Shown here: piece after piece, positions 2,883 through 14,856 of the stretch | Numbering within the stretch: position 1 is the first letter of the stretch | Layout of the letters: each line of letters starts with the position of its first letter | NCBI GenBank assembly: GCA_002787235.1 | Contig: PCWG01000026.1 | Span: 65,278 to 128,564 of the forward strand | From: Nitrospinae bacterium CG11_big_fil_rev_8_21_14_0_20_45_15 | GTDB taxonomy: Bacteria > Nitrospinota > Nitrospinia > Nitrospinales > VA-1 | Reading direction: 5' to 3' | DNA: 63,287 bases | Program-made: the position numbers and the translations under genes | The notes under the pieces: model-generated | What the model saw: the letters and a program-made list of their open reading frames with translations, nothing else | Databases searched by the model: none | What the model was told of the DNA's origin: nothing

Positions 2883-5051
2883 CTATTTGATTTCTGCTAC
2901 CCGATATAGTTTTTTATAGAGCCAGTAATTTCTAAGCACTTTTTTTACATAGTTTCTTGTTTCGGGGTAAGGAATGGATTCTGTAAATTCATCGCGATCC
3001 TTGATATGTTTGAATCGCTGTTTCCATTTTTTCAAAACGCCGGGACCGGCATTGTATGCGATCAATTTGTAAGCTTTGTTTTTTCCTGTCGATGCTTCCA
3101 ATTGTTTTAAATAAGCCGCACCCAGTCGGATATTTATGCCGGGATCAAAGAGATCGTCATCCTCTTCCAGCGAAACTTTTGTTTTTTGAAGAGCATTTAT
3201 CCGGCGGCCGGTTGCGGGCATGATCTGCATCAGACCCCGTGCTCCTGCAACGGATAAGGCTTCTTCTTCGTAGAGACTTTCTTGCTTGATCAATCCTTTT
3301 ATAAAATTAGGATCGACTTTATTCTTTTTGGCCTCGCTATGGATGATATCCGTGTAAACGGCAGGATAAAAAGTTTTCCAGTAGTCGATGGGTAAGTTTT
3401 TCTCTTCTATCTCTCCGACATGGTTTCGATAAAGTTGCAAGAGTCGGACGGAGTCAGAGAAAGCACCTGCCTCATTATAGAGTTTTGCAAGCCAAACGAC
3501 TCCAGATAAATTTTTCTTGAGATTCTTTTCGAGCAACTTCAACTCTTCTCTTGCATGGGCGAATAGTCCAAGAGAAGTCAACTCTTTGGCCCGCAGGACC
3601 CTTTGTAGTTCATCCTTGGTCACTGTTTTAGCAGGGATGATAGAATTTTTTTGAGCTGTTTCGTTGACAGCTGATTCCTGGAGACCGCGCAGGCCGTAGT
3701 AGGTGTAGGGAAACCGATCGTATACTTCCTGAAATAAGTTTTTGGTATTTTTGTCTTTTCGCTTTTCTGCGGTTTTAGCTTTCCAATACAGGTTATTGAC
3801 GATGTAAAAGCCATCGGGTGCAAGTTTGGCGTTCAGTCCGAAGCGTTCCCAGGCCTTGTCGTATTCCTTGTTTTGATAATAGATCCATCCCAGTCGCCAG
3901 GCCGCCCATTGACCGTCATCTGTCTCACCATGTTGTTCGGCAAGATGGAGAAATTGTTTTCCAGCTTCTTCATAATTGGCTTTATCCTCGTGCATTCGGC
4001 CTAAAATATAATGTGATTTGACCGACCATTTACTGGTTGGATAATCTTTGATTATCTTTGCGAACAGTTCGTTGCTCTCTTTGTTCTGTCCAAGATTCCA
4101 TTGATGCCGAGCGATTTTATACATTGCTTCGGGGATATATTTGCTTCCAGGATAAAATTTTATGAACTGCTGTAATGTCCCAATGGCTTCGGCTCTCTTG
4201 CCCAAGCCGGCTTCGGCACGGGCTTGAATGAAATAAAAGTCCGATGGAAGTGGAGATTTGTTTGCGGATATTTCTTGAACTTCATCCAGTACTTTTTTGT
4301 ATTCGACTTTTTTGAGCAAGGCTCGCAGTCGATCTTCCGTTTCGTCAAGAGTCAACGGAACAGGTTTGAAACCTTTGATGCCTTGAAGCTTTTTTCGCTC
4401 TGCTTGAGCAATCTCTGCATTAGGATGATCGGGATGATTGATGAGTAATTGTTTTAAAATTTCATCGGCGTCTTTAAATTTTTTCAGAAAGATCAGGATT
4501 TGGGCAAGATGCAGTTCCAGTTCGGGTTCAATTTTCTGACTTTTTTTGAAAGTAGTGCGCACGGAAAGTTCTTTCAGAGTATCTTGCAAAATCTGAACAG
4601 ACTCATTTTTTTTATCAAGAGCTTCCAGCAGTCTGGCACGCAGTTGTTGCGCCTCTGGATAGAGGGCTGTTTGCGGGAATTGTTTCAATAACGTTTCAAT
4701 CTGATTGAGAGCTAATGGATATTCCTTCTGCAAGTTGTGCCATTGAGCCAGTTCGTAACGGATATAATCCTCTATCTCGGGATAGGCCTTAAGAGATGCC
4801 TTTAATTTTTCAAAGGCCGATTTCTTATTTTCTCTGACATCCAGGAGAGCTGATAAATAGACGGAACGTTTTTCTTGTGACGATGCGTCAAGCAGGGTGC
4901 GTGCTTTTGCCGAACGATCGTTCATGATGTGCTGACCGGCTTTTTGCAGTTGCGTTCTTTGTGCGAGGACTGCTTTTGGAATGAGAAATAATGAAATTAT
5001 TAAAAGGATGGCAAGTGCTTGTGAAAATTTTGGGACGATCTTGTCACGCAA
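2883..5051 (-). CDS. possible separate start for the soluble lytic transglycosylase (Slt-like), nested in the miaA frame
   Basis: Alternative reading of the second half of the previous entry. TTG 5051, with GGAA about 8 bases upstream, would give a 722-residue protein beginning with a basic stretch, then a hydrophobic core and an AVLA-Q cleavage site. That is a normal Sec signal peptide, which the family needs to reach the periplasm. Mature architecture: TPR-like superhelix, then an SLT catalytic domain in the last 150 residues that cleaves the MurNAc-GlcNAc bond to 1,6-anhydro-MurNAc. No ATG or GTG lies nearby in frame, so this start is inferred from the signal peptide only. Confidence 0.5.
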   Translation of the reverse strand: MRDKIVPKFSQALAILLIISLFLIPKAVLAQRTQLQKAGQHIMNDRSAKARTLLDASSQEKRSVYLSALLDVRENKKSAFEKLKASLKAYPEIEDYIRYELAQWHNLQKEYPLALNQIETLLKQFPQTALYPEAQQLRARLLEALDKKNESVQILQDTLKELSVRTTFKKSQKIEPELELHLAQILIFLKKFKDADEILKQLLINHPDHPNAEIAQAERKKLQGIKGFKPVPLTLDETEDRLRALLKKVEYKKVLDEVQEISANKSPLPSDFYFIQARAEAGLGKRAEAIGTLQQFIKFYPGSKYIPEAMYKIARHQWNLGQNKESNELFAKIIKDYPTSKWSVKSHYILGRMHEDKANYEEAGKQFLHLAEQHGETDDGQWAAWRLGWIYYQNKEYDKAWERFGLNAKLAPDGFYIVNNLYWKAKTAEKRKDKNTKNLFQEVYDRFPYTYYGLRGLQESAVNETAQKNSIIPAKTVTKDELQRVLRAKELTSLGLFAHAREELKLLEKNLKKNLSGVVWLAKLYNEAGAFSDSVRLLQLYRNHVGEIEEKNLPIDYWKTFYPAVYTDIIHSEAKKNKVDPNFIKGLIKQESLYEEEALSVAGARGLMQIMPATGRRINALQKTKVSLEEDDDLFDPGINIRLGAAYLKQLEASTGKNKAYKLIAYNAGPGVLKKWKQRFKHIKDRDEFTESIPYPETRNYVKKVLRNYWLYKKLYRVAEIK

Positions 5052-11770: not shown

Positions 11771-12688
11771 TTAAATTCGCGTCAGCCAGCCATCAAATTC
11801 TGGGATTTGTCCTTTTGCCGCTTCAAAATAGGTTTTCTGAATCGAGTCAGTGACAGGCCCTTTTTTTCCAGCTCCGATGATGCGTCCATCGACCTCGCGA
11901 ACCGGGGTGATCTCTGCGGCGGTTCCGGTGAGGAATATTTCGTCAGCGATGTACAATTCGTCACGGGTGACGGCATTTTCCGTCAATTCGTAGCCATTGC
12001 GTTTGCAGATCTGGGCGACGGCATCCCGCGTGATACCCGCCAAATTGGAGCAGGACAAGGGCGGCGTATTGATTTTCCCGTTTTTGACGAGAAAGATATT
12101 TTCTCCCGAGCCTTCAGACACCAGCCCGTTGGGTTCGAGAAGGATGGCCTCATCGTAGCCGTCGCGAATCGCTTCCGCCTTGGCTAAAATAGAGTTGATG
12201 TAGTATCCACAGGCTTTCGCCTTGGTCATGGTGACATTGACGTGGTGACGGGTGAAAGACGATACACGAACCCGAATGCCCAGATCCAGACCTTCATCCC
12301 CCAGATACGCACCCCAGGGCCAGGCGGCTATGGAAACGCGGACATCGACGCCCGCAGGATTGAGACCCATTTTATTGCTACCCAAAAATATGATCGGGCG
12401 TATGTAGCATTCTTCCAGCTCGTTTTCCCTGACAACGGTCAGGACGGCTTCATGCAACTGCTCTTGAGTGAAAGGGACATCCATGCCAAGGATTTTAGCA
12501 GAGCCGAAAAGTCGGTCCATATGCTCATTCAGGCGAAAAATTGCCGATTCCCCTTTTTTAGTGCGATAGCATCGAATGCCCTCAAAAACACCCAATCCGT
12601 AGTGTAAAGTATGAGTTAAGACATGGATTTTTGCATCGTCCCAGTCAACGAGTGCTCCATCCATCCAGATAAATTTAGATTTTTCCAA
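11771..12688 (-). CDS. ilvE: branched-chain amino acid aminotransferase
   Basis: Class IV PLP transaminase. From the TTG at 12688 the protein is 305 residues, the usual IlvE length, beginning MEKSKFIWMDG. A longer TTG start at 12739 adds 17 residues without family support. Diagnostic stretches are HTLHYGLGVFEGIRCY (about 27-41), the PLP lysine K158 in TKAKACGYY, EPNGLVSEGSGEN and FLTGTAAEITPV. It catalyses the last, reversible step of Ile, Leu and Val synthesis with 2-oxoglutarate/glutamate. It is the first gene of the minus-strand block, diverging from the tRNA genes, and no other ilv gene is near. Confidence 0.88.
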   Translation of the reverse strand: MEKSKFIWMDGALVDWDDAKIHVLTHTLHYGLGVFEGIRCYRTKKGESAIFRLNEHMDRLFGSAKILGMDVPFTQEQLHEAVLTVVRENELEECYIRPIIFLGSNKMGLNPAGVDVRVSIAAWPWGAYLGDEGLDLGIRVRVSSFTRHHVNVTMTKAKACGYYINSILAKAEAIRDGYDEAILLEPNGLVSEGSGENIFLVKNGKINTPPLSCSNLAGITRDAVAQICKRNGYELTENAVTRDELYIADEIFLTGTAAEITPVREVDGRIIGAGKKGPVTDSIQKTYFEAAKGQIPEFDGWLTRI

Positions 12689-12786
12689 GATATTTCTCTG
12701 TGTTAATTGTGTAGGCTTGACCGCTTCCGTATTGAACAAACCAAATTTTATTGACCCGGAAGCTCAAAAGCAAGATAATAAATTAA

Positions 12787-12831: not shown

Positions 12832-12904
12832 GGGCCGCTAGCTCAGTTGGTAGAGCAACGCCCTTTTAAGGCGTGGGTCGAAGGTTCGAATCCTTCGCGG
12901 CTCA
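12832..12904 (+). tRNA. tRNA-Lys (anticodon TTT)
   Basis: 73 nt, CCA not encoded. The 7-bp acceptor stem GGGCCGC/GCGGCTC (one G-U pair) is followed by A as discriminator. The D-loop TAGCTCAGTTGGTAGAGC is canonical, the anticodon loop is CTTTTAA flanked by a GCCC/GGCG-type stem, and the T-arm contains GGTTCGAATCC. It is followed after 49 bp by tRNA-Glu in the same orientation. Confidence 0.95.
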
Positions 12905-12953: not shown

Positions 12954-13028
12954 GTCCCCATCGTCTAGCCCGGCCCAGGACACCGGCCTTTCACGCCGGC
13001 GACGCGGGTTCAAATCCCGCTGGGGACG
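12954..13028 (+). tRNA. tRNA-Glu (anticodon TTC)
   Basis: 75 nt without encoded CCA. Acceptor stem GTCCCCA/TGGGGAC with G discriminator, a GC-rich anticodon stem enclosing CTTTCAC (anticodon TTC), and T-arm GGGTTCAAATCCC. Its last seven bases (GGGGACG) and the downstream terminator are repeated at 13869-13934, which marks this tRNA as the anchor of a small insertion region. Confidence 0.95.
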
Positions 13029-13087
13029 CCATTTTTCTACTTTATAGCTCAAGGGCTTAGCGTTTTTCGCTAAGCCCTTTTTGTTTT
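13022..13087 (+). repeat. direct repeat, copy A: tRNA-Glu acceptor end plus terminator
   Basis: A 66-bp block beginning in the tRNA-Glu acceptor stem (GGGGACGCC) and running through the hairpin to the T-rich tail. It matches 13869-13934 with two substitutions (C/T at 13037, T/A at 13063) and a constant offset of 847 bp. It has the placement of an attL-like boundary or the left end of a tandem duplication. Confidence 0.9.
13051..13083 (+). terminator. rho-independent terminator after tRNA-Glu
   Basis: A perfect 12-bp stem (AAGGGCTTAGCG at 13051-13062, complement at 13068-13079), a 5-T loop and a T-rich tail. The hairpin would close the tRNA transcript. Confidence 0.85.
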
Positions 13088-13281
13088 TAAAATAGAAAGG
13101 TGGTTTTTAATACAAGTAATGTCTTTCATTCTTTTTAAATAAAATAAACCCCTGCCTCCAGAAATTCGGGAATCAGGGGCTTAAAATTGGTAAAATGGAT
13201 TCAGATTTGAGGGGCGTATGGCCAAAAAATAATAAATACTTAAGTTATGTAGACTGTTAATCCCTTTCAAAGGAACCAAAC

Positions 13282-13797
13282 ATGGAGATTATTAAACCAC
13301 TATCATCAATTTTTGGTTTTTTGGGGAAAACCTTTTTTGAGAAAAAGAGCTTAGAAAAAAAATCGGATTTAGAAAGTTACAACTTGCTTAAGGCTAGTAT
13401 TCAACCGTTTGATGAAGTTAGATTCTTTTTTAAAGAATGGGATTTTAGAGGGGCCTTCTCTTCTTCTTTTTTAATCAGTTTTTACGAAGGAGTAGAGAGA
13501 TTTACCGATAATCCAGAAAATCATTTCCATGACCAAGACTTACAAAAGCACATTATGGAAGTCCTAGAAACCACCTCTTCTATGGTTGATTTAGCACTTA
13601 AAAAATGCCGGAAAACAAATAGCGATGAATATGATTTCGAAATTAAATGTAGAAAATATGGGGATACAGAGGATGATTTGGAGACAGGGGATAAATTAAA
13701 TGAACTTTCAACCCAGATATTCCAGAAATATTCAACTTTTTTGGAATTAGCAAAAAAGAGGTTAATCGCAACAAACGAGCCTAAAGGGTTAAGTTGA
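13282..13797 (+). CDS. unknown 171-residue protein carried in the tRNA-Glu island, module A
   Basis: ATG 13282 follows AAAGGA with good spacing. I do not recognise the protein. It is soluble-looking, highly charged and helical, with an N-terminal run EKKSLEKKSDLES, several aromatic-rich helices in the middle (DEVRFFFKEWDFRG) and a basic C-terminus. There is no signal peptide, convincing membrane span or catalytic motif. The DNA is visibly more AT-rich than the flanking housekeeping genes. It sits alone between two 66-bp direct repeats that start in tRNA-Glu, the usual position of integrated accessory cargo. A role in phage or plasmid defence is guessed only from the neighbouring SieB-like gene. 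Confidence 0.6.
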   Translation: MEIIKPLSSIFGFLGKTFFEKKSLEKKSDLESYNLLKASIQPFDEVRFFFKEWDFRGAFSSSFLISFYEGVERFTDNPENHFHDQDLQKHIMEVLETTSSMVDLALKKCRKTNSDEYDFEIKCRKYGDTEDDLETGDKLNELSTQIFQKYSTFLELAKKRLIATNEPKGLS

Positions 13798-13868
13798 TCT
13801 GGCTGTCTTTTAATGCGGTGTTCCAATCCTCCAAAATCCGGGAAAGTTGGTTTGAACTTTCTGACCTC

Positions 13869-13934
13869 GGGGACGCCATTTTTTTACTTTATAGCTCAAG
13901 GGCTTAGCGATTTTCGCTAAGCCCTTTTTGTTTT
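13869..13934 (+). repeat. direct repeat, copy B: tRNA-Glu acceptor end plus terminator
   Basis: The second copy of the 66-bp block found at 13022-13087. It begins exactly at the GGGGACGCC of the tRNA acceptor end, but here no tRNA body precedes it. This is the pattern expected for an attR-like scar or tandem module duplication anchored at tRNA-Glu. Confidence 0.9.
13898..13931 (+). terminator. rho-independent terminator, duplicated copy
   Basis: The same 12-bp stem as at 13051-13079 with loop ATTTT and a following T-run. It would end transcription of the module A gene. Confidence 0.8.
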
Positions 13935-14102
13935 GGAAATACGAGTCTTGTTAGGACCAATCTGACCATTATATATTTGTCACTTTTTCAAATATAATAA
14001 ACCTCAAACTTCAGGATTCGGGGAAATGGGGGTGTATGATGAATTTAAAAAAACACCTAGGAAAATTATCCCATAAAGATTCCAGATCTATAAGGTCACG
14101 CT

Positions 14103-14615
14103 ATGTTATCTAATTTTAATTTCATTGATTTTTTCAGAGAGGTGGCAAAAAGTACCAAGTTTCAGATTTCTGCAGCTGTCTCTTTTGGGGTTGCGTTATT
14201 TCTTATTTGGTCTGAAAAAAACGACCCGGTAAAAGTCACACTAACAATCCTCTTTCTTTTTGCTGCGTGCATGTTGGTTAGTTCTCTGGCGGAAAAATTT
14301 GGGTGTTGGATTTTGAAAAAGATCAAACGAAATAAAGATTGGAATACCTTGACACCCGAAGAGAAAGAATTTGTGTCGCATTATATTTTGAATAATACCA
14401 AGACTAGGTATGTAATCACCTTCAACGGCGCATGGCGTGATAGCGGAATAATAAATCCCTTGATCCATAAAGGGGTGCTGTATTTGGCAAGTGAAATTAG
14501 CGAATACAGAGGCGATTCATGGGAGATTATGGAACAGACATTTCCAATAAACATCCATGATGATGCTTTTAAATTCTTCACAAAAAAATTGGAAGAAGTA
14601 AATAAAGATAGTTGA
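14103..14615 (+). CDS. SieB-like superinfection exclusion family membrane protein
   Basis: 170 residues: two hydrophobic helices at about 21-38 and 45-62, a basic linker (KKIKRNK), then a compact cytoplasmic domain. That domain starts LTPEEKEFVSHYI and includes GIINPLIHKGVLYLAS and a late FPINIHDDAFKFF stretch. The order of two TM helices, the L-T-P-E-E-K helix, the winged-helix-like L-x-x-K-G-x-L-Y-x-A-S strand and an F-x-I-x-D end is that of the SieB family (PF14163). Its founder in phage P22/lambdoid phages aborts superinfecting phage development. No phage structural gene or integrase is near; it forms module B of the tRNA-Glu island and is AT-rich. Assignment is by motif pattern only. Confidence 0.65.
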   Translation: MLSNFNFIDFFREVAKSTKFQISAAVSFGVALFLIWSEKNDPVKVTLTILFLFAACMLVSSLAEKFGCWILKKIKRNKDWNTLTPEEKEFVSHYILNNTKTRYVITFNGAWRDSGIINPLIHKGVLYLASEISEYRGDSWEIMEQTFPINIHDDAFKFFTKKLEEVNKDS

Positions 14616-14856
14616 TTAAGTTATTATTTGGGAGTCAAGCTTAGATGTTGACCGGAAATAGTGGATACGAAGAAAGTGATGGATGTAATCATTTTCGGTG
14701 GAGTTCTTGTGTTTTCATATTCCTTATAATTTTATTTGCGCCCTGTTTTATCAAATTCATATTTTTAATCTAATGTTAATGAAACTTTAACCTTGAGGAG
14801 CTATCTTGGTAATGTAGGTTTGTGAACTTCAACTGTTTTTTTGGAGCGCGAATTTT

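Follow-up and report, generated by a model that had tools for sequence, protein, structure and literature searches.

A one-gene module behind tRNA-Glu in a Nitrospinia genome, probably left by mobilizable elements whose serine recombinase gene runs into its target tRNA

Positions 13032-13868 of a 63,287-nucleotide stretch of the genome of Nitrospinae bacterium CG11_big_fil_rev_8_21_14_0_20_45_15 (assembly GCA_002787235.1, contig PCWG01000026.1, positions 65,278 to 128,564; the whole stretch is called the window) are probably a one-gene, recombinase-less, CIME-like unit at the 3′ end of tRNA-Glu, either left over from or carried by a family of integrative mobilizable elements (IMEs) of the large serine recombinase (LSR) type. 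The right edge of this segment (module 1) contains, on the minus strand from 13879 to 13781, what is best read as the tail of an LSR; given that tail, the second copy of a repeat derived from the tRNA-Glu 3′ end, which starts at position 13869, is best read as attR, and 13032-13868 as the inserted module.

Two tRNA genes on the plus strand, tRNA-Lys(TTT) (12832-12904) and tRNA-Glu(TTC) (12954-13031), were identified by ARAGORN and Rfam (RF00005), and tRNAs were the only Rfam families above threshold in the window search. The 3′ end of tRNA-Glu is the attachment site and the left boundary of module 1. The tRNA-Glu 3′ end and a terminator behind it (13022-13094, plus strand) recur at 13869-13941 on the same strand, where the copy marks the right boundary of module 1; the spacing is 847 nucleotides and the identity is 95% over 73 nucleotides. 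Four of the 73 positions are mismatched, two of them within the first 66, in agreement with the preliminary description, which had noticed a 66-bp repeat starting at the tRNA-Glu acceptor end. Each copy contains a strong terminator hairpin (13051-13079 and 13898-13926; z-scores -4.8 and -6.2) and is followed by a leader block (13112-13195 and 13965-14050, plus strand). These leader blocks, a diverged similarity that had also been noticed, gave a local alignment score of 56, which none of 1000 shuffles reached (mean 29, maximum 52). No further terminator core is present in the window (zero expected by chance), nor is there another copy of the 73-bp unit in the whole genome; an interpretation of the repeats as dispersed elements was rejected because the unit is confined to this spot.

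Such confinement would suit an ordinary tandem duplication of the tRNA end, terminator and leader, with unrelated genes later filling or replacing the space and no recombinase involved, and so would the homology that continues beyond the att region into terminator and leader, declining from 95% to about 65%. This explanation is nevertheless unlikely: the copy begins exactly at the tRNA 3′ end, the sequence on its inner side is an lsr tail that is seen at many tRNA ends with other cargo, and one relative (G043) has the same module boundary without a duplicated terminator. The last two points also go against the earlier proposal, in which a copied tRNA end and terminator precede each added cargo, since the part that recurs among genomes is the lsr tail block. 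A similar terminator after tRNA-Glu is common to G043 and another relative (G041), so that the terminator may belong to the original flank of the site. One simple integration does not account for the duplicated terminator; the left end in the window may be the tRNA-Glu flank of a related donor that was excised along with the cargo.

About 85 bp directly before position 13869 recur in three relatives (G005, G016 and G043), where every copy ends at GGGGACGCC, and a diverged form is present at tRNA-Glu in G039 and G001. Searches with a sequence model and a protein profile located about 25 copies of this block in the class Nitrospinia, many of them against the ends of other RNA genes (tRNA-Leu, tmRNA); the relatives of the window's tail that adjoin tRNA or tmRNA 3′ ends, at about 25 other places, carry unrelated cargo. 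On the minus strand the copies have the consensus (M/V)xxxxxxSNQLFxxLEEWNxxLKxxSxDLxPSP followed by a stop, the first residues being derived from the tRNA end. The copy in the window (13781-13879, minus strand; MASPRSESSNQLSRILEDWNTALKDSQINLTL, then stop) matches the profile HMM with an E value of 6.7e-16 and is open from ATG to stop. In 25 of 25 tails the motif is preceded, at a distance of 7-8 codons, by an in-frame NTG that falls on the complement of the tRNA 3′ end, with no stop between, and pairwise differences at codon positions 1, 2 and 3 are 0.40, 0.25 and 0.52 (permutation p 0.003); a few copies are degraded, having a stop or frameshift. At two loci (L311 and L257) an LSR C-terminus continues without interruption and in frame into the tail (..LKGVNSEMVEVSGDTSNQLFEVL.. 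and ..LKGGEYEMARLDRQSVNQLFEVL..), fusions that apparently derive from a neighbouring tandem element.

On the strength of these LSR fusions, the fixed frame and the third-position bias, the conserved peptide is most readily interpreted as the LSR's own C-terminal tail, severed by integration, and 13781-13879 as the severed lsr 3′ end on the inner side of attR. If the peptide were instead a microprotein of its own or an arm sequence of attP, one would expect what is seen in every integrated copy, a separate short ORF (mostly 33-93 codons), but the in-frame fusion to the LSR C-terminus at two loci and the fact that neither the frame nor the spacing from the tRNA end varies make this improbable. 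A separate microprotein gene was set aside as a candidate after the natural LSR-tail fusions were found.

A scan of public genomes gave 80 LSR relatives, in Nitrospinia, Nitrospirales, Nitrosomonas, Alphaproteobacteria and others, and 67 loci were examined. The lsr gene ends antisense inside an annotated tRNA or tmRNA gene at 59 of the 67 loci, right after a conserved E-M-V/A, and in a partial tRNA 3′ end at six more; at seven LSR loci the tail is also present several kilobases upstream on the same strand. The LSR at tRNA-Leu in G038, whose gene runs antisense into the tRNA, is a 537-amino-acid protein with resolvase, recombinase and zinc-ribbon domains. Among NCBIfam models CcrB scores highest for it, at 81.8 bits, far below the cut-off of 900. 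Complete IMEs have lsr at one end, antisense into the target tRNA, and at the other end MobC and relaxase genes, then the in-frame ..SNQLF..LEEWN.. against the displaced tRNA 3′ end. Thus, lsr overlaps tRNA-Leu in the complete IME of G038 and the tail is beside MobC and relaxase genes 10.7 kb away, while in G040 the LSR is at tmRNA and the relaxase-plus-tail end is 48 kb away; MobC (NikA-like) and relaxase genes adjoin the tail in many copies.

Other loci with such tails were observed in passing. The tmRNA IME of G040 (L189, G040:C37:1-20000) includes Gabija (GajA/GajB) and a complete type I RM system beside MobC, relaxase and tail. At L175 (G001:C1:148500-154500), tRNA-Leu(caa) is followed by decayed LSR fragments, intervening genes and, after 2.8 kb, a tail, which makes the locus an intermediate between an IME and a recombinase-less module. 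The window genome itself has another attR tail of the LSR type, next to a tmRNA-like end (C41:15656-15720; L159, L191); genes for MobC, a relaxase, and ArdC-like and Fic-like proteins lie on its element side.

These elements suggest how module 1 could have arisen. The circular form would join both halves of the element, with attP inside the lsr 3′ end, and a crossover at or near the CCA end would keep the tRNA intact. Integration would then exchange the last ~30 lsr codons for tRNA antisense sequence and leave the native tail behind at attR. Module 1 was presumably delivered, or trimmed to its present state, by an LSR acting in trans. A search of plasmids for a circular lsr with its native tail gave two weak matches only, both tail-less. 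In the window, the stranded tail is all that remains of the LSR element: module 1 has no lsr running antisense into the tRNA end, no MobC or relaxase, and a single gene, for a 171-aa protein. On the left, complete IMEs show the lsr 3′ end, but module 1 has a terminator there that shares about 95% identity with its counterpart behind attR; of the module edges, attR is clear, the left boundary is the tRNA end, and an lsr-type attL is absent. We infer the recombinase for this tRNA-Glu site, since the searches yielded no full-length LSR at a tRNA-Glu, nor any LSR in the window or the rest of its genome assembly.

A more tentative suggestion, for which the odds are rather against than in favor, is that the tail swap acts as a switch. 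The circular element would make an LSR that has its native ~30-residue SNQLF tail and is able to integrate, whereas the tRNA-antisense tail would lock the element in place or alter the direction of the reaction, and in tandem arrays a neighbour's tail could restore the gene. If so, tail-bearing recombinase-less modules such as that of the window would also serve as repair ends for incoming elements.

The cargo gene of module 1 (13282-13797, plus strand) was predicted as an ORF of 171 amino acids, and the gene that follows the second leader (14103-14615, plus strand) encodes a 170-aa SieB-like (superinfection exclusion B) protein. Both are AT-rich (33% and 36% GC, respectively, against 44% for the window), as had been noted. 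The SieB-like assignment in the preliminary description is borne out by a match to PF14163 (E 9.5e-7; 29.0 bits, cut-off 26) and there is a weak match to a SieB protein of a Shewanella plasmid; a defence role is plausible. No homologue of the SieB-like gene was found among the 76 other genomes of the class. The 171-aa protein had nothing above threshold in Pfam, PHROGs, PADLOC or NCBIfam, its AlphaFold model (pLDDT 49) was left unused, and no defence role can be claimed for it. Its one homologue in the class (40% identity) is in G016 beside tRNA-Val, so that the family may recur at tRNA sites; at that locus (L245, G016:C122), genes for Hypoth_Ymh and DUF5343 proteins adjoin as well as the tRNA.

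The comparison set was the class Nitrospinia (77 genomes), in which the tRNA-Glu site was examined at 44 loci. To the left of the tRNA-Lys/tRNA-Glu pair, a branched-chain aminotransferase-like gene (11771-12739, minus strand; PF01063) is the conserved neighbour, present at 36 of the 44 loci in relatives. To the right, the sequence differs in nearly every genome, and the window's downstream genes are at the tRNA-Glu site of none of the 44 loci; relatives have other modules, some of them in tandem, or tyrosine-integrase islands, and an empty tRNA-Glu site with the window's exact flank was not found among them. Had all relatives carried the same two genes and both repeats in fixed order, the site would not look mobile; they carry other cargo and both genes are almost unique to this genome, so the site is a hotspot, as the preliminary description had supposed. 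Other cargo also lies between tRNA-Glu and 3′-end copies in relatives, which upholds the idea of a very small unit without an integrase at a tRNA hotspot, and no integrase was found in either unit of the window (13032-13868 and the SieB-like unit).

Cargo beside a tail at tRNA-Glu consists of an AHSA1 protein in G043, a DUF2306 protein in G016, a 361-aa gene without assigned function in G001 and a putative cupin-like gene in G039. Cargo at the tRNA and tmRNA sites is often defence-like, examples being Abi-alpha with TIR at tRNA-Glu in G028, DUF4238 at tRNA-Leu in G039 and the Gabija and type I RM genes in the tmRNA IME of G040. G016 has two LSR-less modules in tandem, with tails at contig positions 3355-3445 and 8132-8213, each ending in the tail plus GGGGACGCCA (at 3430 and 8199). 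The left ends at tRNA-Glu in G028, G016 and G001 resemble worn lsr ends; in G028 and G016 these were the top profile matches, at E values that are not significant (0.77-3.0), and lsr relics at the left ends in relatives are suggestive only. Downstream of tRNA-Glu in G028 (L086, G028:C147), the cargo was observed to be Abi_alpha (PDC-S47) and a TIR-TM protein.

Defence-like genes such as Abi-alpha and TIR at tRNA-Glu in G028 and SieB in the window would also be expected if the two genes were a defence island built behind the tRNA by homologous exchange, with an old attR as a chance bystander. That is doubtful, because cargo gene 1 terminates inside the tail (13797, within 13781-13879), which makes module 1 very compact, and because relatives keep the order of tRNA, cargo and tail. 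Nor is a remnant of a tyrosine-integrase satellite or island, the usual tRNA-anchored kind, at all likely. The tRNA-Glu of this class does host such islands (a tyrosine integrase is directly at tRNA-Glu in G006, G038, G045 and G026), and tRNA 3′ fragments of about 44 nucleotides, kilobases away, serve as their attR in G055 and G038. However, the tRNA portion repeated at 13869 is the last 9-10 bases only, not the ~44-nucleotide segment from anticodon to end, for which reason a tyrosine-integrase att remnant was rejected, and the inner flank is an LSR tail. In G038, an island of about 38 kb with a tyrosine integrase lies between tRNA-Glu and a 42-nucleotide copy of the tRNA 3′ end (L072-L073, G038:C37), showing that two unrelated recombinase types share tRNA-Glu.

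The reading of module 1 as a remnant or passenger of an LSR-type IME does not extend with the same clarity to its neighbour. Two modules had been proposed; the first is borne out, and the second is no more than plausible, because the SieB-like unit (13869-14615), which begins with the second terminator, has neither a tail nor an attR of its own. Its right edge is lost beside the remains of an IS3-family left end (14644-14711, plus strand), identified by alignment with 12 copies, several of which are directly upstream of an IS3-type orfA. The SieB-like unit may be an older or earlier module truncated on the right, or flanking DNA that predates the insertion. The segment 14644-14711 had been considered as a second element end and was rejected as such upon its identification as the IS3 relic. 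Similar IS3 left ends recur in many genomes of the class, sometimes without an adjacent transposase.

CIMEs are already known, and the variant feature here is the exchange of the recombinase tail, which had been suspected in Dehalococcoides since 2011. The tail at the edge of module 1 points to a widespread element family whose recombinase loses its last ~30 codons with every tRNA insertion. A tail of about 33 codons beside a tRNA end is a readable fossil of a past serine-recombinase insertion, with or without the recombinase, and it supplies the att sites of a large tRNA-targeting LSR family. The question raised in 2011, why such recombinase genes end inside the target RNA gene, becomes testable, as does whether loss of the native tail controls excision. 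For marine Nitrospinia, these modules point to one route for the turnover of small defence-type genes.

Among known systems, SCC elements (CcrA/B/C) include in CcrB the best NCBIfam match of the LSR, far below cut-off, and their target, hosts and cargo differ from those of the present family, which has a single recombinase. Module 1 differs from a tyrosine-integrase tRNA island in having no long repeat of the tRNA 3′ half and no integrase. A CIME (cis-mobilizable element) is one that an active element mobilises in cis after accretion. It has att ends, lacks integrase and transfer genes, and can be in tandem at one site (PMC5704250). Module 1 likewise lacks integrase and transfer genes, but its mark is a serine-recombinase tail and its attL side is not preserved as such, and CIME-like here describes its structure. 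Reviewed serine-recombinase IMEs (Tn4451 and Firmicutes IMEs) combine a relaxase with a large serine recombinase; those that are site-specific disrupt protein genes and others have low specificity (PMC5704250), whereas the family described here inserts at tRNA and tmRNA 3′ ends. The closest description is that of the ssrA islands of Dehalococcoides, in which the 3′ end of the gene for a CcrB-like serine recombinase, DsiB, overlaps attL; the islands are in tandem, bounded by repeats of the RNA-gene 3′ end, and 15 of 31 have no integration module (PMC3146451). The likeness to DsiB is drawn from that description. Dehalococcoides islands have ssrA as their sole target, insert in its T-loop and are marked by a 20-bp repeat, whereas the target in the window is tRNA-Glu and the LSR family here uses tmRNA and many tRNAs near the CCA end, with MobC and relaxase in place of the dsi module. 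McMurdie et al. (2011) suggested that dsiB is perhaps fully functional only when circularization joins it to its missing 3′ fragment (PMC3146451); in the LSR family described here, the missing 3′ fragment has been identified.
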